From a virus, in IMG/VR virus record IMGVR_UViG_3300044631_003111, positions 1 through 37,304 of that record: 37,304 nucleotides of DNA. One strand, 5' to 3'. Shown here piece after piece: positions 2,556 to 36,379 of this stretch. The notes under the pieces were generated by a model that was given only the letters and a program-made list of their open reading frames with translations, was not told the origin of the DNA and did no database searches. A program made the position numbers and the translations under genes. How positions within the stretch are numbered: position 1 is the stretch's first letter; every line of letters begins with the position of its first letter.

Positions 2556-3533
2556 ATGATCGCAAACGCACTCCCTCGCCCGCTCACCGCAGGCTCAGTT
2601 GACAACGCCATCCTCCGCGCAGACGGCACAGGCGGCGCGACTCTGCAAAATTCTGATCTCGTCATAGACGATGCCACCACCTCGACTCAAAACAATGTCG
2701 CAATCACCAACCAACACAGCGGGCAAACCAACTCCGCCCTCGTCCTCTCGCCGAAAGGCACGGGGGCACTAATCGCTGGGGCGAAGCCAGATGGAACCAC
2801 TGCGGGAGGTAATGCAAGGGGCGATTTGGCTATTGATTTACAGTTAGCTAGATCAAGCTCTGGTCAAGTTGCCACTGGACAGCGGTCCGCTATATGCGGA
2901 GGAGGCGAAAATTTTGCCTCAAGTTCTTATGCGGGAGTTTTGGCGGGGCATCAGAATGGGGCCTCTGGCAGCAGGAGTGCAATTTGTGCAGGTCAGTCGA
3001 ATTCGGCGTCAGGAAGTAGGTCGGGCGTTTTATCTGGGAATACTAATACAGCATCAGCAACAAGTGCTGTTACTGTTGGCGGAGAGCAGGCTGTCTCTGA
3101 TAGGTTCTCAATGCTGGCCCACGCATCAGGCCGCTTTGCAGCCAACGGCGACGCCCAGCGCGCCCGCTTCGTCATGCGGAACAAGACGACAACGAACAGC
3201 GCAGTCGAGCTATTCCTCGACGGAAGCGCCACCCGCCTCACGATCCCTTCTGGCAAGGTTGTCGCTCTTACAATTAACATCACAGGTATTTCCAGCACAG
3301 GCGCAGCAGTGGCCCACTACATGCGGCAGTATGCGCTCAAGAATGTCTCTGGCACGACCAGCGAGGTTTACGCCCCCGTTACTATCGGCACAGACAACGC
3401 CGCTGGCACATCCATCGCGCTCTCCGCGAGCGATGCGTCAGACGCCCTCATCGTGAGCGTCACCGGCACAGCCTCCACCATCTGGCGCTGGGTAGCCAGC
3501 GTCGATGCCGTCGAAATCGCATTCGGAACTTAA
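2556..3533 (+). CDS. Tail fibre with YadA-like beta-roll repeats
   Basis: 325 residues. Residues about 108-178 contain degenerate 14-residue repeats of the form S-x-S-x-(I/V)-x-x-G-G/Q-x-N-x-A-S (for example SAICGGGENFASSS and SAICAGQSNSASGS), the hallmark of YadA/trimeric-autotransporter head beta-rolls, also used in phage fibres. Residues 189-325 form a C-terminal beta-rich domain of unknown fold. The stretch at about 2760-3120, covering the repeats, has visibly lower GC and different codon choice from both flanks, suggesting an exchanged receptor-binding segment. The ATG lies right after the previous stop. Confidence 0.75.
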   Translation: MIANALPRPLTAGSVDNAILRADGTGGATLQNSDLVIDDATTSTQNNVAITNQHSGQTNSALVLSPKGTGALIAGAKPDGTTAGGNARGDLAIDLQLARSSSGQVATGQRSAICGGGENFASSSYAGVLAGHQNGASGSRSAICAGQSNSASGSRSGVLSGNTNTASATSAVTVGGEQAVSDRFSMLAHASGRFAANGDAQRARFVMRNKTTTNSAVELFLDGSATRLTIPSGKVVALTINITGISSTGAAVAHYMRQYALKNVSGTTSEVYAPVTIGTDNAAGTSIALSASDASDALIVSVTGTASTIWRWVASVDAVEIAFGT

Positions 3534-3544
3534 CCAACCACACC

Positions 3545-3784
3545 ATGAGAACATACGGCCTTATATTCGCAGACGGACGCAAGGAACTCGCCAGCATCGT
3601 GCTGGACGAAAACGACGAGCCACGCATCGACACCATCCGCCCCTATCCCTGCCCAGAAGATTGGGTAGACCCGCAGATCGTGCCCCTCGTCAAAATCGAC
3701 CAACCCGAAAGCGGCGACTGGGAACCAAAACTCGTCTGGTTCGCAGATCGCGTCGAGCGCCAGTGGATTCCAGCAAACTCCTAA
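3545..3784 (+). CDS. Small hypothetical protein after tail fibre
   Basis: 79 residues, acidic (many Asp and Glu), ending in a Trp-rich tail (LVWFADRVERQW). No signal peptide, membrane segment or known motif is visible. Small acidic ORFs directly behind fibre genes are often fibre-assembly chaperones or accessory proteins. Here that is only inference from position. The start ATG lies 11 bases past the fibre stop. Confidence 0.6.
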   Translation: MRTYGLIFADGRKELASIVLDENDEPRIDTIRPYPCPEDWVDPQIVPLVKIDQPESGDWEPKLVWFADRVERQWIPANS

Positions 3785-3796
3785 CTAAACACGATT

Positions 3797-4510
3797 ATGC
3801 CAAACGAACTCAACATCGCCCTCGCCACCAGCGGCCTCACCGTCACCGCCCAACGCTACCAAGCCGGAGCCGCCGTAGGCTCCGCCATCTCCTGCCCCGA
3901 AGTCGGCAGCACCGGATTCTACTCTGGCAACATGACCGGCACAGCAGGAACCTACCAAGTCGCCTTCCTCGCCTCCTCCGCCAATGTCGGCAGCGGCAGC
4001 ATCGTCTGGGACGGCACAGCCGAAGTCGCCCCCAGCACCCTCACCGCCGCGCAAGTCAACGCCGAAACGGACACAGCCCTTGCCGATGTTGGCCTCACAA
4101 GCACCGTTACCGGGCGCATCGACGCCGCCATCTCCTCCCGCCTCGCCCCATCCGGCACGCTCGCCACCGTCACCAACCTCACCAACGCCCCCGCCAGCGT
4201 CACGCCAGCCGACATCTGGTCGCACGCCACCCGCACCATCACCGGCGGAACGGTAGACACCCTCACCAACGCCCCCAGCGTCCCCAGCGCCACCACCATC
4301 GCCAGCCAGGTCCGCACAGAGCTCACCGCCGAACTCAACCGCCTCGACGCCACCGTCTCCAGCCGCCTCGCCTCCGCCAGCTACACCGCCCCCGCGAACT
4401 CCGACATCACCGCTATCAAGGCCAAAACCGACGCCCTCAACACCGACCGCCTCGCCCAGTGCAGCACCGTCGCCACGACCGGCTCCCAACTCGCCGCCGC
4501 CCTCAGCTAA
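3797..4510 (+). CDS. Putative tail/fibre structural protein
   Basis: 237 residues, extremely rich in Ala, Thr and Ser. Residues 1-80 form a small beta domain (LTVTAQRYQAG, GFYSGNMTGTAGTYQVAF). The C-terminal part has repeats of the type 'AAISSRLAPSG' and 'ATVSSRLASASYTAP' followed by DITAIKAKTDALN, a motif series common in phage structural proteins. This suggests a thin helical stalk. The stop codon overlaps the start of the next gene (TAATG), tying it to the lysis cassette. A virion role is inferred; no enzymatic residues are seen. Confidence 0.7.
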   Translation: MPNELNIALATSGLTVTAQRYQAGAAVGSAISCPEVGSTGFYSGNMTGTAGTYQVAFLASSANVGSGSIVWDGTAEVAPSTLTAAQVNAETDTALADVGLTSTVTGRIDAAISSRLAPSGTLATVTNLTNAPASVTPADIWSHATRTITGGTVDTLTNAPSVPSATTIASQVRTELTAELNRLDATVSSRLASASYTAPANSDITAIKAKTDALNTDRLAQCSTVATTGSQLAAALS

Positions 4511-31462: not shown

Positions 31463-31719
31463 ACACCATCGAAGACAACCCGCTGCGCGACCTAAACAAC
31501 GCCCGAAATTTGCCTACGACTGATTGCCCCCGTTGCGAAGCCGGTGACGACAATTTCGCTCGGCTGCTCCGCGCCCGCGACACCCTCCTTGCCGAAAACC
31601 GCGACCTTCAAAAGCAACTCGCCGCCGTCAACGACCAGCTCCTTGAAGCCCAGTCCGTCATCCGCTCCCTTCGCAAGACTTTACGCGAGACATCCGCCTT
31701 CACCAAAGACCCCGAATGA
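31459..31719 (+). CDS. Small coiled-coil protein before TerL
   Basis: 86 residues, with an N-terminal CPRC motif (TTDCPRCEAGDDN) and a long helix or coiled coil (LLAENRDLQKQLAAVNDQLL). Its stop overlaps the TerL start by four bases. Coiled-coil proteins at this position often assist terminase or scaffold, but no family is certain. Confidence 0.55.
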   Translation: MNTIEDNPLRDLNNARNLPTTDCPRCEAGDDNFARLLRARDTLLAENRDLQKQLAAVNDQLLEAQSVIRSLRKTLRETSAFTKDPE

Positions 31720-33317
31720 CGCAAAGCTACCACCCGCTCCTGCCTTTCATCACGCCCGAGCAGTTCAAGGCCGACTTTGAGGGCGCCAAGCGCCTCCTCG
31801 CCGAGCGCGAGCAACGGATTGCCCTGGAGAAGGACGACCCCATCGCCTACGGTTTCGAGCCCGACCACTGGGCGCGGGCAGAGGAGTTTGCGCGGAAATA
31901 CAAAGACATCCTCGTCCTCGGCGGCAACCGCTCCGGCAAATCGACATGGGCCGGCAAGCTCGTCATGCGGACCTTGATCGACAAGCCTGAGAGCCGCGCC
32001 TGGTGCTTCCAGCAGACCAACGACAACTCCGTGTCGATGCAGCAGCCGATCCTGTGGAATTTCATGCCGAAGGACCTCCGCACGGCCAAGCGCGACCGCA
32101 TCACGAACATCAGCTACACCCAGAAAAACGGATTCTCCGAAAACACCTTCGTCCTCCCGAACAAATCCCAATGCTGGTTCCGCAACTACTCTCAAGACAT
32201 CAGCACGATTGAAGGCGGCGAGATCGACATAGCGTGGTGCGACGAGCTCGTCCCCCTCGACTGGCTTGAAACCATCCGATTCCGCCTCCTCGACCGCAAC
32301 GGCATCCTCGTCGTCACCTTCACGCCGGTCGAGGGCTACAGCCCCACGGTCAAACAATACCTCCAAGGCGCCAAGACCCTCGAGGAAGCTCCCGCCGAAC
32401 TCCTCCCCGACAAATCCGGCACTGGCTTTGAGTTGGTCCCCGTCTCCCAGCAATGCACCACCCGCCGAGCCGCGATCTTCTATTTCCACACCAAGCTCAA
32501 CCCTTGGGCCGGCTACGACCGCATGAAGGTCGAGCTCGACCGCCAGCCCCGCGAGAAAATCCTCTGCCGCGCCTACGGCGTCCCGGTCAAAGCCACCGCC
32601 ACCTGTTTCCCGCGGTTCCGCGAAGGCGTGCATGTCGTCCCGCCCGATAAAGTTCCCACCACGGGAACCGTCTACCACTTCTGCGACCCCGCCGGCACGA
32701 AGCCCTGGTTCATGATCTGGGCAAAGGTCGATGCCGCCGGCCGCAAGTGGATTTACCGCGAATGGCCGCAGGAGGACGAATACATCCCCGGCTTCGGCTA
32801 CCCCGGCACCTGGGCCATTTCCTCGGGCAAAAAATCCGACGGCGAACCCGGCGAAGGCCAGACCCCCATGGGTTTCGGGCTCGAGACCTACATCCAGGAA
32901 ATCCAGCGCATCGAAGCTCTCGACGGCGTCGAAGTTTTCGAACGCTGGATCGACTCCCGCTACGGGAACACGGTGGTCGTCGGCACCCGCGAGACCGCCA
33001 CCACCCTCCTCGAAGACCTTGCCGAAAAAGGCATGCCCTTCCGCAGTTGCCCCGCCGAGAACATCGCCGAGGGCATCGCCTTCATCAACGACCACCTCTA
33101 CTACGACGACACCAAACCCATCGACCATGAAAACGCACCGCACCTCTACATCAGCGCCCGCTGCACCAATACCATCTGGGCCCTCAAAGAATGGACCGGC
33201 AAAGACGGCCCCAAAGGCGCCAGCAAAGACCCCATCGACTGCCTCCGCTACCTCCTCGCCAGCGGAGTCGACGATGTCGCCGGCAAGCTCCAGGTCACCG
33301 GCGGCGGCTGCTACTAA
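31716..33317 (+). CDS. terL: Terminase large subunit
   Basis: 533 residues. The ATPase domain has Walker A VLGGNRSGKSTW (Gly69-Ser76) and Walker B IAWCDE (Asp176, Glu177). The RNase H-like nuclease domain has acidic residues at FCDPAG (Asp324), RWIDSRYG (Asp413) and KDPIDCLRYLL (Asp506/509). It cuts and drives DNA into the prohead through the portal. It starts at ATG 31716, overlapping the previous gene by four bases. The small-subunit candidate lies upstream at 29878. Confidence 0.92.
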   Translation: MTQSYHPLLPFITPEQFKADFEGAKRLLAEREQRIALEKDDPIAYGFEPDHWARAEEFARKYKDILVLGGNRSGKSTWAGKLVMRTLIDKPESRAWCFQQTNDNSVSMQQPILWNFMPKDLRTAKRDRITNISYTQKNGFSENTFVLPNKSQCWFRNYSQDISTIEGGEIDIAWCDELVPLDWLETIRFRLLDRNGILVVTFTPVEGYSPTVKQYLQGAKTLEEAPAELLPDKSGTGFELVPVSQQCTTRRAAIFYFHTKLNPWAGYDRMKVELDRQPREKILCRAYGVPVKATATCFPRFREGVHVVPPDKVPTTGTVYHFCDPAGTKPWFMIWAKVDAAGRKWIYREWPQEDEYIPGFGYPGTWAISSGKKSDGEPGEGQTPMGFGLETYIQEIQRIEALDGVEVFERWIDSRYGNTVVVGTRETATTLLEDLAEKGMPFRSCPAENIAEGIAFINDHLYYDDTKPIDHENAPHLYISARCTNTIWALKEWTGKDGPKGASKDPIDCLRYLLASGVDDVAGKLQVTGGGCY

Positions 33318-33480: not shown

Positions 33481-33762
33481 ATGATCACCATCAAAAAAAC
33501 CATCCGTTACATGACCCCCGAACGCCTCGACGAGGACGACCTCAAATCCGCCCTCTGCATGCCCGGAATCAAATCTCCCGCGGCCATTGCCATGTTCCAA
33601 GTGCTCGAAGACCACATCGACGACCTCACCGAGCTGGTTGCAAACCTCAAGACCGCCGACAAGCACGGCACCCTTGCCCACTGCGCCGGCGGCCTTGACG
33701 CCCTCCGCGCCTACCGGGTTGACCTCATGCTGCGGATCGAAGAGGCGAGCAAGCAGAACTGA
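33481..33762 (+). CDS. Hypothetical protein between terminase and ncRNA
   Basis: 93 residues, ATG four bases after the previous stop. Mainly helical (YMTPERLDEDDLKSALCMPG, MFQVLEDHIDDLTELVANLK), with an acidic N-terminal half. No motif or family is recognised. It is the last gene of the terminase operon; the extended -10 promoter of the structured RNA starts three bases after its stop. Confidence 0.6.
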   Translation: MITIKKTIRYMTPERLDEDDLKSALCMPGIKSPAAIAMFQVLEDHIDDLTELVANLKTADKHGTLAHCAGGLDALRAYRVDLMLRIEEASKQN

Positions 33763-33764
33763 TA

Positions 33765-33773
33765 TGCTATAAT
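33765..33773 (+). promoter_or_regulatory. Extended -10 promoter of the structured RNA
   Basis: The sequence TGCTATAAT contains TGn followed by TATAAT, a perfect extended -10 element, immediately after the stop of the preceding gene. No good -35 box is at the usual spacing, as is normal for extended -10 promoters. The expected start of transcription is near 33780, exactly where the structured RNA begins. Confidence 0.7.
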
Positions 33774-33779
33774 GAATTT

Positions 33780-34133
33780 AAGACAGGCAGACGAGAGACA
33801 CGGATGAGCGGCAGTGAAGCATGGCTTCGACCCGCCACATCGAGGTCGGGAGGCGTCCGTATGGGCGACCGCAACCTTGGAAACCCGGCGTTTGAAAAGG
33901 TGGGGCCCCACCGTTCCTGTCTGACATATTTTCCGGTGGGGCAGCGAGGGCGGCCCGCCACTAAGTCGTAGCTGGAGGCGGGTGTGTAGGCGCTCGAAAG
34001 AGTTGCCGAGACCCTTACCTGGCACCTTCGGGTGGTTTCCGGGGAATCGCATCCAGCAGCCGAGCGACCTGGCCCCCACCGGACCCTTTTTCGCCCTGCA
34101 TATTCTTTGATCAAGAAATATGCAGGGCTTTTT
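33780..34133 (+). ncRNA. Structured phage non-coding RNA of unknown family
   Basis: About 354 bases without a plausible protein. Domain I is closed by AGACAGG (33781-33787) with CCTGTCT (33916-33922), enclosing ACGGATG/CGTCCGT (33800-33806/33854-33860), GAAGC/GCTTC and AAAC/GTTT hairpins. Domain II is closed by the 9-bp CCGGTGGGG (33933-33941) with CCCCACCGG (34074-34082), enclosing CCCGCC/GGCGGG (33954-33959/33977-33982), a GAAA tetraloop hairpin (33989-34007), a UUCG hairpin CACC-TTCG-GGTG (34023-34034) and its base CCTGG/CCGGG. GCTGGA (33971-33976) can pair with TCCAGC (34052-34057), a possible pseudoknot. A promoter and terminator bound it. No match to RNase P, tmRNA, 6S, SRP or group I introns is evident by eye. 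Confidence 0.7.
34093..34133 (+). terminator. Strong intrinsic terminator ending the structured RNA
   Basis: A 12-bp perfect stem (34093-34104 with 34117-34128; GCCCTGCATATT/AATATGCAGGGC), extended by CTT/AAG with one bulge and a short loop, is followed directly by five T (34129-34133). This is a textbook rho-independent terminator. It also isolates the scaffold gene from upstream transcription. Confidence 0.9.
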
Positions 34134-34154: not shown

Positions 34155-34200
34155 TTTAGGTTGATTTCGGTTGGTTTAGGTTGATTTCGGTTGATTTGGT
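34155..34200 (+). repeat. Helically phased direct repeats
   Basis: A 20-base unit (TTTAGGTTGATTTCGGTTGG) occurs at 34155-34174 and, with one change at its last base, at 34175-34194, then a partial copy. Internally it is four phased 10-bp units GGTTGRTTTN, starting at 34159. Spacing of one DNA turn puts all units on one face, as in protein-binding arrays. It lies between the terminator and the scaffold gene and could be an activator, packaging or promoter site. No clear -10 box follows. Confidence 0.6.
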
Positions 34201-34222: not shown

Positions 34223-34310
34223 GTTTGCGTCAGGCACTTTGGAATCAAGGACCCACTGTGCCGGTCCTTAATCCCGCACTGACCCACTTGGTGGATACCA
34301 TGACGCAAAC
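34223..34310 (+). promoter_or_regulatory. Structured 5' leader occluding the scaffold start codon
   Basis: GTTTGCGTCA (34223-34232) is perfectly complementary to TGACGCAAAC (34301-34310), which includes the end of the ATG and the next codons. Between them are a 7-bp hairpin AAGGACC/GGTCCTT (34247-34253/34263-34269) and CCAC-TTG-GTGG (34284-34294), which covers the GGTGG ribosome site. Together they form a three-way junction masking the start region. Translational autoregulation of the scaffold is inferred. Confidence 0.6.
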
Positions 34311-35334
34311 CCCAGAACCCCAGACAGCAGACACGCTCACACTCAGCGACATCGCCGCCGAAATCGGCTTTGACCTTGAGCCAGTAGAGCAGACACCGCA
34401 GGAAAAACCCGAAAAAGCCGCGGCCGAGCCCGAAAACGAGCCCGAAACCGCAGCAGATTCAGACCCCTCAGCGGAAACCGATCCTTCTCAGGAACAAACC
34501 GACGGCCAAGAGACCGAATCCGAGGACGAAAAGTCCGAAGACGAGGAATCCGAAGCCGCCGATGACGAAAAAGAGGAAACGCCGAGCGCCACGCAGGAGA
34601 AACTCCTCAAGCGCATCGACAAAATCACGGCCAAGCGCCGCGAAGCCGAGGAAAAAGCCGAGCAACTCGAGGCCGAACTTTCCGACCTCCGCACCAAGCT
34701 TGACTCCACGCCCCCCGTCACCCTCGCCCCCACGCCGGCCGACCCGCTCGCCGATGTGGAATCCCCCGAGCAGCTCGCCGAGCGCATTTCCACGGCCAAG
34801 AAAGTCCGCAAATGGGCCATCGAAAACCTCGAAGGAGGCACGGTCCAGAATGGCAAAGGCGAAGAGGTCTACTACGAGCCCGCCCAGGTGCGCCAATACC
34901 TCGCCAACGCCGACGAGGTCCTCACCGAGCACGCTCCCAAGCGCCAGCAGTGGATCGCCCAGCGCCAGACCGTCCTGCCAGAGGCCAAAGCCGCCTACCC
35001 GCAGCTTTTCCAAGCCGGCAGCCAGGAGCAGCAAATCCTCCGCGAGACCCTCAAATCCTTCCCCGCCCTCCGCGGGATGCCCAACCTCGAACTCGTCATC
35101 GGCGATGCAATCGCCGGCCAGCAAATGCGCTTCGCCCGCCAGCAAGCCGCCCAGAAAGCCGAAAAACCCGTCGCCAAACCCGAGAAATCAACCCCATCCG
35201 TCCCGTCTGCCGCCAAAGGTTCGAAAGTTCCTGCCAAAGACATCCAAACCCGCGCCGCCTCGAAATCGATTTTCGAGCGTGGAGCAAATCTAAAAACCGA
35301 CGACATCGCCGCCTTCTTAGAAGGGGCCCTGTAG
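34300..35334 (+). CDS. Capsid scaffolding-like protein
   Basis: 344 residues. Residues 25-95 are a highly acidic Glu/Asp/Ser tract; residues 95-135 form a coiled coil (LLKRIDKITAKRREAEEKAE); the C-terminal third is helical and basic in places (AGQQMRFARQQAAQKAEKPV). This acidic, helical, low-Cys layout, directly before the major capsid gene, fits a scaffolding protein that directs prohead assembly and then leaves. ATG 34300 is preferred to a TTG at 34225, since it fits the GGTGG ribosome site and the leader structure. Some scaffolds of this kind regulate their own synthesis. Confidence 0.75.
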   Translation: MTQTPEPQTADTLTLSDIAAEIGFDLEPVEQTPQEKPEKAAAEPENEPETAADSDPSAETDPSQEQTDGQETESEDEKSEDEESEAADDEKEETPSATQEKLLKRIDKITAKRREAEEKAEQLEAELSDLRTKLDSTPPVTLAPTPADPLADVESPEQLAERISTAKKVRKWAIENLEGGTVQNGKGEEVYYEPAQVRQYLANADEVLTEHAPKRQQWIAQRQTVLPEAKAAYPQLFQAGSQEQQILRETLKSFPALRGMPNLELVIGDAIAGQQMRFARQQAAQKAEKPVAKPEKSTPSVPSAAKGSKVPAKDIQTRAASKSIFERGANLKTDDIAAFLEGAL

Positions 35335-35356: not shown

Positions 35357-36379
35357 ATGCCCGCTACACTCATCACCTCCCAGACTGGCATCCGCCAGGA
35401 CCTTAGCGACCTCATCGCGGTCGTTGACGCCAAAACCTGCCCCGTAGTTTCGATGGCCCGTAAAGGGTCCGAGCCCATTAATCCGCTAACACAATGGCAA
35501 GCAGATGCTTACGCATCTACAACCGTCCCCGCCGGTGTCCTCTCGAACACGGATGTCTCCTCATCCGATTTCGTCGATAACGCCGCCAACCGCGTCCTCT
35601 TGAGCGCACGAATCCAAAAGTTTCGTGAAGTCCCGAGTGTCGATGATCTTGCGAATACCGTTTCAGAGGTTGCAGGCATCGGCAAACGCCGCGAGATGGC
35701 CCGCGCCGTCACCAAATCCCTCGAGCAACTCAAGCGTTCCATGGAAGCCGCCTTCTGCTCGGACCAAGAATCGCAAGAGCAGTCCGGCAGCGCCCCCTAC
35801 AAGACCCGCGGCCTCGGCAAGTGGATCCAAAATGGAGCGCAATCAGACCTCCCGGTCAACGCCAGCTACCGCACGCCCACCGGATCGATCAACGCGACCG
35901 CCACGGCATCCCTCACCGAGAACAACATCCAGGACATGCTCCAGAGCATCTACGAGCAAACCGGCAAAGGCCAAACCTACAGCCTCGTCTGCGGGCCTGC
36001 CCTCAAGCGCCAGTTCACCTCCTTCACACGCACCCAGTTCGGATCGACCAATGTCGCCTCCGCCATCCGCGTGCTGAACCAGAAGTCCGAGAACAAGATC
36101 GTCAGCACCGTTGACATCTTCGAAGGCGACTTCGGCACCCTTGAGCTGATCCCCAGCCTGTTCCTCGCCGCTGACGCCTCCGGCGCTGGCGCCACAGCCG
36201 TCAAAAACGGCCGCGGTTATGTCCTCGACATGGACATGGTCGAGCTCCGCTACAACCGCAAGCCCCGCTTCCAAGAGCTGGAAGACCGCGGCGGTGGTCC
36301 CCGCGGCATCGTGGACGCGATCTGCGCCCTCTGCGTCAAGAGCCCTCTGGCTCTCGGCAAGTTCGCACCTACTGCCTGA
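35357..36379 (+). CDS. Major capsid protein (DUF5309/SU10-type HK97 fold)
   Basis: 340 residues. The N-terminus (TSQTGIRQDLSDLIAVVDAK) and the C-terminal strand pattern (YVLDMDMVELRYNRKPRFQE, LCVKSPLALGKFAPTA) match the DUF5309/SU10-like major capsid family with an HK97-type fold. The middle has the spine-helix-like region (REMARAVTKSLEQLKRSMEA) and GPALKRQFTSF. It follows the scaffold gene after 22 bases. It should form the capsid shell. A perfect hairpin lies downstream of its stop and may stabilise its mRNA. Confidence 0.85.
   Translation: MPATLITSQTGIRQDLSDLIAVVDAKTCPVVSMARKGSEPINPLTQWQADAYASTTVPAGVLSNTDVSSSDFVDNAANRVLLSARIQKFREVPSVDDLANTVSEVAGIGKRREMARAVTKSLEQLKRSMEAAFCSDQESQEQSGSAPYKTRGLGKWIQNGAQSDLPVNASYRTPTGSINATATASLTENNIQDMLQSIYEQTGKGQTYSLVCGPALKRQFTSFTRTQFGSTNVASAIRVLNQKSENKIVSTVDIFEGDFGTLELIPSLFLAADASGAGATAVKNGRGYVLDMDMVELRYNRKPRFQELEDRGGGPRGIVDAICALCVKSPLALGKFAPTA

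Follow-up and report, generated by a model that had tools for sequence, protein, structure and literature searches.

Organization of the locus

The window, i.e., the whole stretch of DNA analyzed here, is a 37,304-base IMG/VR record of an uncultured phage. Its interval 33765-34133, located between the terminase gene and an ORF in scaffold position, runs from a promoter-like site through two RNA modules to an intrinsic-type terminator. The flanking genes and the two end signals are as follows.

31716..33317, (+) strand: terminase large subunit, 533 aa (phrog_2, E = 1.4e-20; Pfam Terminase_6N)
33481..33762, (+) strand: small ORF, 93 aa, no family match, conserved immediately 5′ of the RNA slot in relatives
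33765..33773, (+) strand: extended -10 promoter-like site TGCTATAAT, kept in L001-L005, adjoining module 1 or module 2
34093..34133, (+) strand: intrinsic terminator hairpin (34093-34128) with T5, z = -5.9
34300..35334, (+) strand: ORF in scaffold position, 344 aa, no family match, preceding the capsid gene
35357..36379, (+) strand: major head protein, 340 aa (phrog_1328, E = 1.6e-42)

The five nearest relatives have TGCTATAAT or TGCTATACT at the extended -10 promoter proposed in the first-pass annotation, and the site abuts whichever module stands first, which supports the proposal. No -35 element was found for this site, and a simple sigma-70 scan, which requires one, returned nothing. The proposed intrinsic terminator with its T5 run was likewise recovered, although it was missing from the pattern-scan output despite its z score. 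The interval had also been described as lacking a convincing ORF, and indeed no frame is open across all members, with indels between relatives that are not multiples of three. A tRNA/tmRNA search of the interval (ARAGORN) gave no match, and Rfam gave none at the gathering threshold and assigned no family up to an E-value of 10; a permissive Rfam match proved to be a chance microRNA on the other strand at the terminator. Thus, neither an Rfam match nor a protein hit was found in this interval. The folding energy yielded z = -2.25 for the stretch as a whole, -1.0 for module 1, and -1.4 for module 2; taken alone, it is weak evidence for structure, and the proof lies in covariation.

Downstream of the terminator, a tandem array of 10-nt TTTAGGTTGA-like units (4.3 copies, 34155-34197) precedes the scaffold-position ORF. 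Similar arrays (GTTGATTT/GTCGATAT) stand at the corresponding position in relatives, whether or not the RNA is present, and are a candidate binding site for terminase or a regulator. A further stretch at 34278-34303, TGACCCACTTGGT..GGA..CCATGA, is conserved in relatives ahead of the scaffold-position start codon and is probably the translation start region.

Module 1 is a pseudoknotted fold backed by covariation

Relatives of module 1 were collected by pattern scans of the whole viral collection and come from several gene contexts (n = 27 aligned); the conserved bases in the 3′ part of the module are partly imposed by the search patterns. The following elements were assigned.

33781..33922, (+) strand: module 1 RNA, new family (R1 match, E = 4.5e-35; covariation)
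33781-33787/33916-33922, (+) strand: P1, AGACAGG/CCTGTCT, 7 bp
33788-33793/33889-33894, (+) strand: P2, from the module 1 alignment
within 33781..33922, (+) strand: P3, GATG/CATC, with a swappable arm, and a swappable P5 arm, from the module 1 alignment
33843-33846/33874-33877, (+) strand: pseudoknot helix AGGT/ACCT, crossing P4
33847-33850/33884-33887, (+) strand: P4, CGGG/CCCG, crossed by the pseudoknot
33852..33870, (+) strand: swappable arm GGCGTCCGTATGGGCGACC, identical in L006 and L199 module 2
33899..33912, (+) strand: hairpin with a 6-nt palindromic loop, GGGCCC (33903-33908), a candidate symmetric kissing loop

The alignment backs P1 to P4, the pseudoknot, and the terminal hairpin. 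Paired bases fill 95.8% of its cells, as against 34 to 44% with slid partners, and double-sided changes occur in 60 cells, as against 21 in shuffles. The pseudoknot, suggested earlier only as a possibility, is now backed by four alternative complementary 4-bp versions (AGGU/ACCU, GUCU/AGAC, AUCU/AGAU, and AACU/AGUU), with changes on both sides in three of its four pairs and 100% pairing. Rfam returned no match for the module 1 relatives. A hammerhead was considered because some members carry CTGATGAG, but most carry CGGATGAG, and it was dismissed by eye, without a model.

Module 2 is a nested fold read from the (+) strand

The second module was aligned from 29 relatives retrieved by pattern scan, with a short form besides; pattern matches L087-L111 were due to chance and were left out, and a weak R2 match in L113 was dropped on reading, since the sequence is unlike the element.

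33932..34083, (+) strand: module 2 RNA, second new family, long form (R2 match 33925-34088, E = 2.4e-38; covariation)

Its closing stem pairs TCCGGTGGGG with CCCCCACCGGA over 10 bp. Accordingly, of the two helix-closed domains described earlier, the 7-bp stem of the first was right, while the second is closed by 10 bp rather than 9; the GNRA and UUCG hairpins noted at the same time are a GAAA and a UUCG loop, both in domain 2. Module 2 is a nested fold of 41 pairs, 17 of which change on both sides, and 98.9% of cells are paired (33 to 44% with slid partners). Rfam matched none of the modules themselves among the module 2 relatives. Both modules thus have a conserved fold with compensatory changes in homologs, as is asked of a new family and as the first-pass annotation had proposed to check.

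Several G-U pairs of module 2 are kept in almost all members (12-168 in 26/29, 45-153 in 29/29, and 52-141 in 25/29), which shows that selection acts on the (+) strand RNA. At these positions, a DNA hairpin or an RNA from the other strand would be mismatched, and a DNA cos/pac site was rejected on this ground. A DNA-level element more broadly, be it a cos/pac site or a recombination hairpin, would account for the nearness of terminase, the inverted repeats, and the optional, cassette-like presence; yet packaging genes are kept in phages that lack the modules, and we regard this explanation as highly improbable.

In three contigs (L185, L196, and L206), module 2 is split by an insert of ~640 nt flanked by repeated CGAGGAAGCGC. 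The insert contains two small ORFs, the second of which reads into the 3′ half of module 2.

The modules are separate families that exchange parts

The interval holds two undescribed structured RNA families in tandem, fused here but normally apart. Among relatives retrieved via terminase and via the capsid protein, L001, L003, and L005 lack module 1 and have the promoter joined directly to module 2 at a clean junction (L005 with the long form, by R2 match), while L039 carries module 1 only. Many relatives carry the short form of module 2, for which the R2 match is weak but consistent (E of ~1e-5 to 5e-3). Module 1 is missing even in phages whose terminase large subunit is 98-99% identical, both modules are absent from 18 of the 44 distinct relatives of the window architecture, and each also occurs alone elsewhere. 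Because the modules come and go separately, the locus encodes two RNA families, and the earlier description of a single ~350-nt RNA is not supported. The rest of that description, an autonomous, structured, phage-encoded noncoding RNA outside any named family, appears sound, given the covariation and the lack of an Rfam match.

The two families also exchange parts, since the 19-nt arm GGCGTCCGTATGGGCGACC of the window module 1 is identical in the module 2 RNAs of L006 and L199. Among relatives of module 1, the P3 and P5 arms are exchanged wholesale.

Two neighboring sequences were recorded separately. In L013, positions 3097-3946, behind a cargo ORF, look like a decayed 5′ half of a short module 2 (TTTCCGGCGGTCATTGAGGACGC), which is consistent with module loss. 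In L016, a GC-rich inverted-repeat element (TTTGACCGGCG...CGCCGGTCAT; 3579-3931) follows a short module 2 and is possibly another structured element.

A palindromic loop in module 1

The hairpin near the 3′ end of module 1 always has a self-complementary core. Six of the eight distinct loop 6-mers are perfect palindromes (CGGCCG, GGGCCC, TGCGCA, GCGCGC, ATGCAT, and GCATGC), and all eight have a complementary central pair. When columns are shuffled, without regard to relatedness, six palindromes are reached in only ~5 per million cases (P of ~5e-6). Because neighboring bases at the loop center are unable to pair with each other inside a single hairpin, pairing between two RNA copies is the simplest explanation, and self-association of module 1 as a homodimer through a symmetric kissing loop is strongly indicated by these sequences. 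Palindrome covariance has been used as an argument for symmetric kissing loops in OLE and GOLLD (PMC12286853); it was found here in module 1 only, for which an oligomer is predicted.

Distribution and gene neighborhood

Both modules are single-copy per record and optional. Within the set of 63 sites, which are not independent, as many come from related phages, 58 have a terminase, portal, protease, or capsid gene within 2.5 kb (27/30 for module 1 and 31/33 for module 2). The exceptions are L125 and L197 (as far as their sequence was covered), together with L177 and L178 (2.8 and 2.5 kb from terminase, respectively) and L164 (3.1 kb from the capsid gene). Four clear architectures were seen: (A) terminase (phrog_2), small ORF, RNA, scaffold, and capsid; (B) terminase (phrog_15), RNA, small ORF, and portal (phrog_21); (C) RNA and an opposite-strand terminase in convergent orientation; and (D) RNA, prohead protease, and capsid (phrog_1005). 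In architectures A to C, the slot is taken by module 1 in some phages and by module 2 in others. As either module can occupy this position in unrelated phages, the two probably do the same job.

This neighborhood fits the packaging or assembly role that had been suggested from the placement alone. An RNA working with terminase, portal, or prohead in a pRNA-like fashion, with module 1 as a kissing-loop dimer, would explain the proximity of 58 of 63 sites across four architectures, the alternation at one slot in three of them, and the oligomerization implied by the loop palindromes. That role is weakened, however, because presence is optional, down to phages with 98-99% identical terminase, and two unrelated RNAs share the slot. 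Close relatives that lack the modules have intact terminase and capsid genes, the terminase family that accompanies each module varies (phrog_2 and phrog_15), the ~640-nt insert interrupts module 2 in three contigs, and Rfam shows no match to pRNA. On balance, we consider such a role rather unlikely, although it is the main alternative to the reading favored below and not far behind it.

The same layout bears on a cis-acting boundary of the late transcript between the terminase and the head genes, which could be a terminator, an insulator, a 3′-end stabilizer, or an antiterminator of the put type. The RNA lies on the same strand and upstream of the head genes in three architectures, its 5′ end in many cases comes after the stop codon of the preceding gene or overlaps it, T-runs often come after the closing stem, and in the window a strong terminator stands behind it. 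Nevertheless, in the convergent architecture the next gene is an opposite-strand terminase, the modules are far larger and more complex than put RNA (PMC9378689), and a cis element has no need of a self-complementary loop, which makes this explanation unlikely.

Outside the viral collection, R1 found module 1 only in the contig already known among 388 Verrucomicrobiota genomes, and R2 found module 2 in 0 of 388, in a search without a positive control. No similar DNA was found in cultured phages. Genome-contig pattern matches were mostly due to chance; the real ones, L138 and L142 only, both come from Verrucomicrobia bins, which suggests Verrucomicrobia as the host group. A host chromosomal repeat was rejected, as there is one copy per record and R1 matched none of the 387 other genomes.

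The RNA slot in other relatives holds accessory genes. Cargo between terminase and scaffold includes a 6-pyruvoyl tetrahydropterin synthase (L043), a Dam-like protein below the Pfam cut-off (L019), and ORFs of 212 and 260 aa without assignment (L013 and L028); L047 also carries cargo.

abiF RNA follows module 2 in other phages

At seven loci (L183, L184, L191, L192, L194, L195, and L207), an abiF RNA (RF03085) lies ~8-10 nt 3′ of the module 2 match. In L191, a tRNA gene comes after it. RF03085 gave no match in the window, whose terminator is not abiF. The Abi_2 domain (PF07751) was found neither in G000 nor in nine module 2 records, including the abiF RNA loci, some of these records being fragments; among 145 Verrucomicrobiota genomes, it is present in 12, one of them the bin in which a module 1 phage contig lies. 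The abiF RNA is an antitoxin that neutralizes its toxin by direct binding (PMC12373285), and phage escape from ToxIN via a pseudo-ToxI RNA provides a precedent (PMC5449768).

Discussion

Comparison of the relatives demonstrates, at the level of sequence, distinct conserved folds, a (+) strand molecule, carriage by phages, optional presence, and exchange of modules and arms. As for function, we tentatively favor accessory, trans-acting late RNAs that most likely serve as decoys against a host or defense factor, with module 1 acting as a dimer. The interval would then be an autonomous phage RNA locus of promoter, module 1, module 2, and terminator, and both RNAs would be produced while the head genes are expressed. 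By binding a host factor and keeping it occupied, they would allow infection to run to completion, with RNA-binding toxins of abortive-infection or type III-like systems as the best target candidates, and the exchanged arms may be interchangeable stabilizing or recognition parts. A decoy or antitoxin role leads because of the orphan abiF RNA, the presence of Abi_2 in Verrucomicrobiota genomes, and the abiF and pseudo-ToxI precedents; the locus's own promoter-like site and terminator, its optional presence, and the accessory genes at the same slot also support it. Against it, the abiF RNA stands behind module 2 in other phages only, not in the window, and the link to packaging and head genes is unexplained by this role except through late expression.

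Among known systems, the HK022 put RNA, ~70 nt with two stem-loops (PMC9378689), is likewise a phage RNA element found near a promoter and followed by a terminator. It acts in cis on RNA polymerase, whereas the present modules are larger, are pseudoknotted or multibranched, and are partly placed with no same-strand gene downstream. The abiF and type III antitoxin RNAs share small size, structure, and the phage-defense arena with module 2, which abiF follows at seven loci; however, the abiF motif is a 37-nt hairpin that neither module nor the window terminator matches, and no toxin gene is attached here. The phi29 pRNA is required for packaging and is bound to the connector and the ATPase. The resemblance to it lies in a phage RNA with intermolecular loop-loop contacts tied to packaging genes; in contrast, the present modules are optional, occur with different terminase families, have no Rfam match (at gathering or up to an E-value of 10), and, in module 1, have one self-complementary loop rather than two paired loops.

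The closest likeness is to GOLLD, ROOL, and OLE, large structured noncoding RNAs of unknown function, the first two phage-borne, that form homo-oligomers with symmetric kissing loops and, in OLE and GOLLD, display the palindrome covariance seen in module 1 (PMC12286853). The present RNAs differ in size (130-220 nt), in being two unrelated folds without an Rfam match, and in adjoining packaging and head genes rather than tRNA islands; the Rfam models of GOLLD, ROOL, and OLE matched neither the window nor the relatives of either module. They are of the kind known from GOLLD and ROOL, i.e., structured phage RNAs, with at least one module probably oligomeric, while neither Rfam nor the literature searched has a precedent for the folds, the small size, or the shared slots. 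It is possible, if still doubtful, that two unrelated folds, interchangeable at the packaging/head junction and one of them a kissing-loop homodimer, make up a new class of RNA machine in phages, working either as an assembly cofactor unlike pRNA or as a counter-defense device sometimes paired with the abiF antitoxin.

For both of these compact families there are now models and dozens of relatives, along with natural deletion variants, exchanged arms, and slots common to unrelated phages. Compact families, deletion variants, and shared slots make function testable by deletion and complementation, and the palindromic loop makes self-association testable by one loop mutation and a compensating change. 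The results bear on structured phage RNAs such as GOLLD and ROOL, and the association with abiF suggests that a phage may encode an RNA antitoxin yet lack its toxin.
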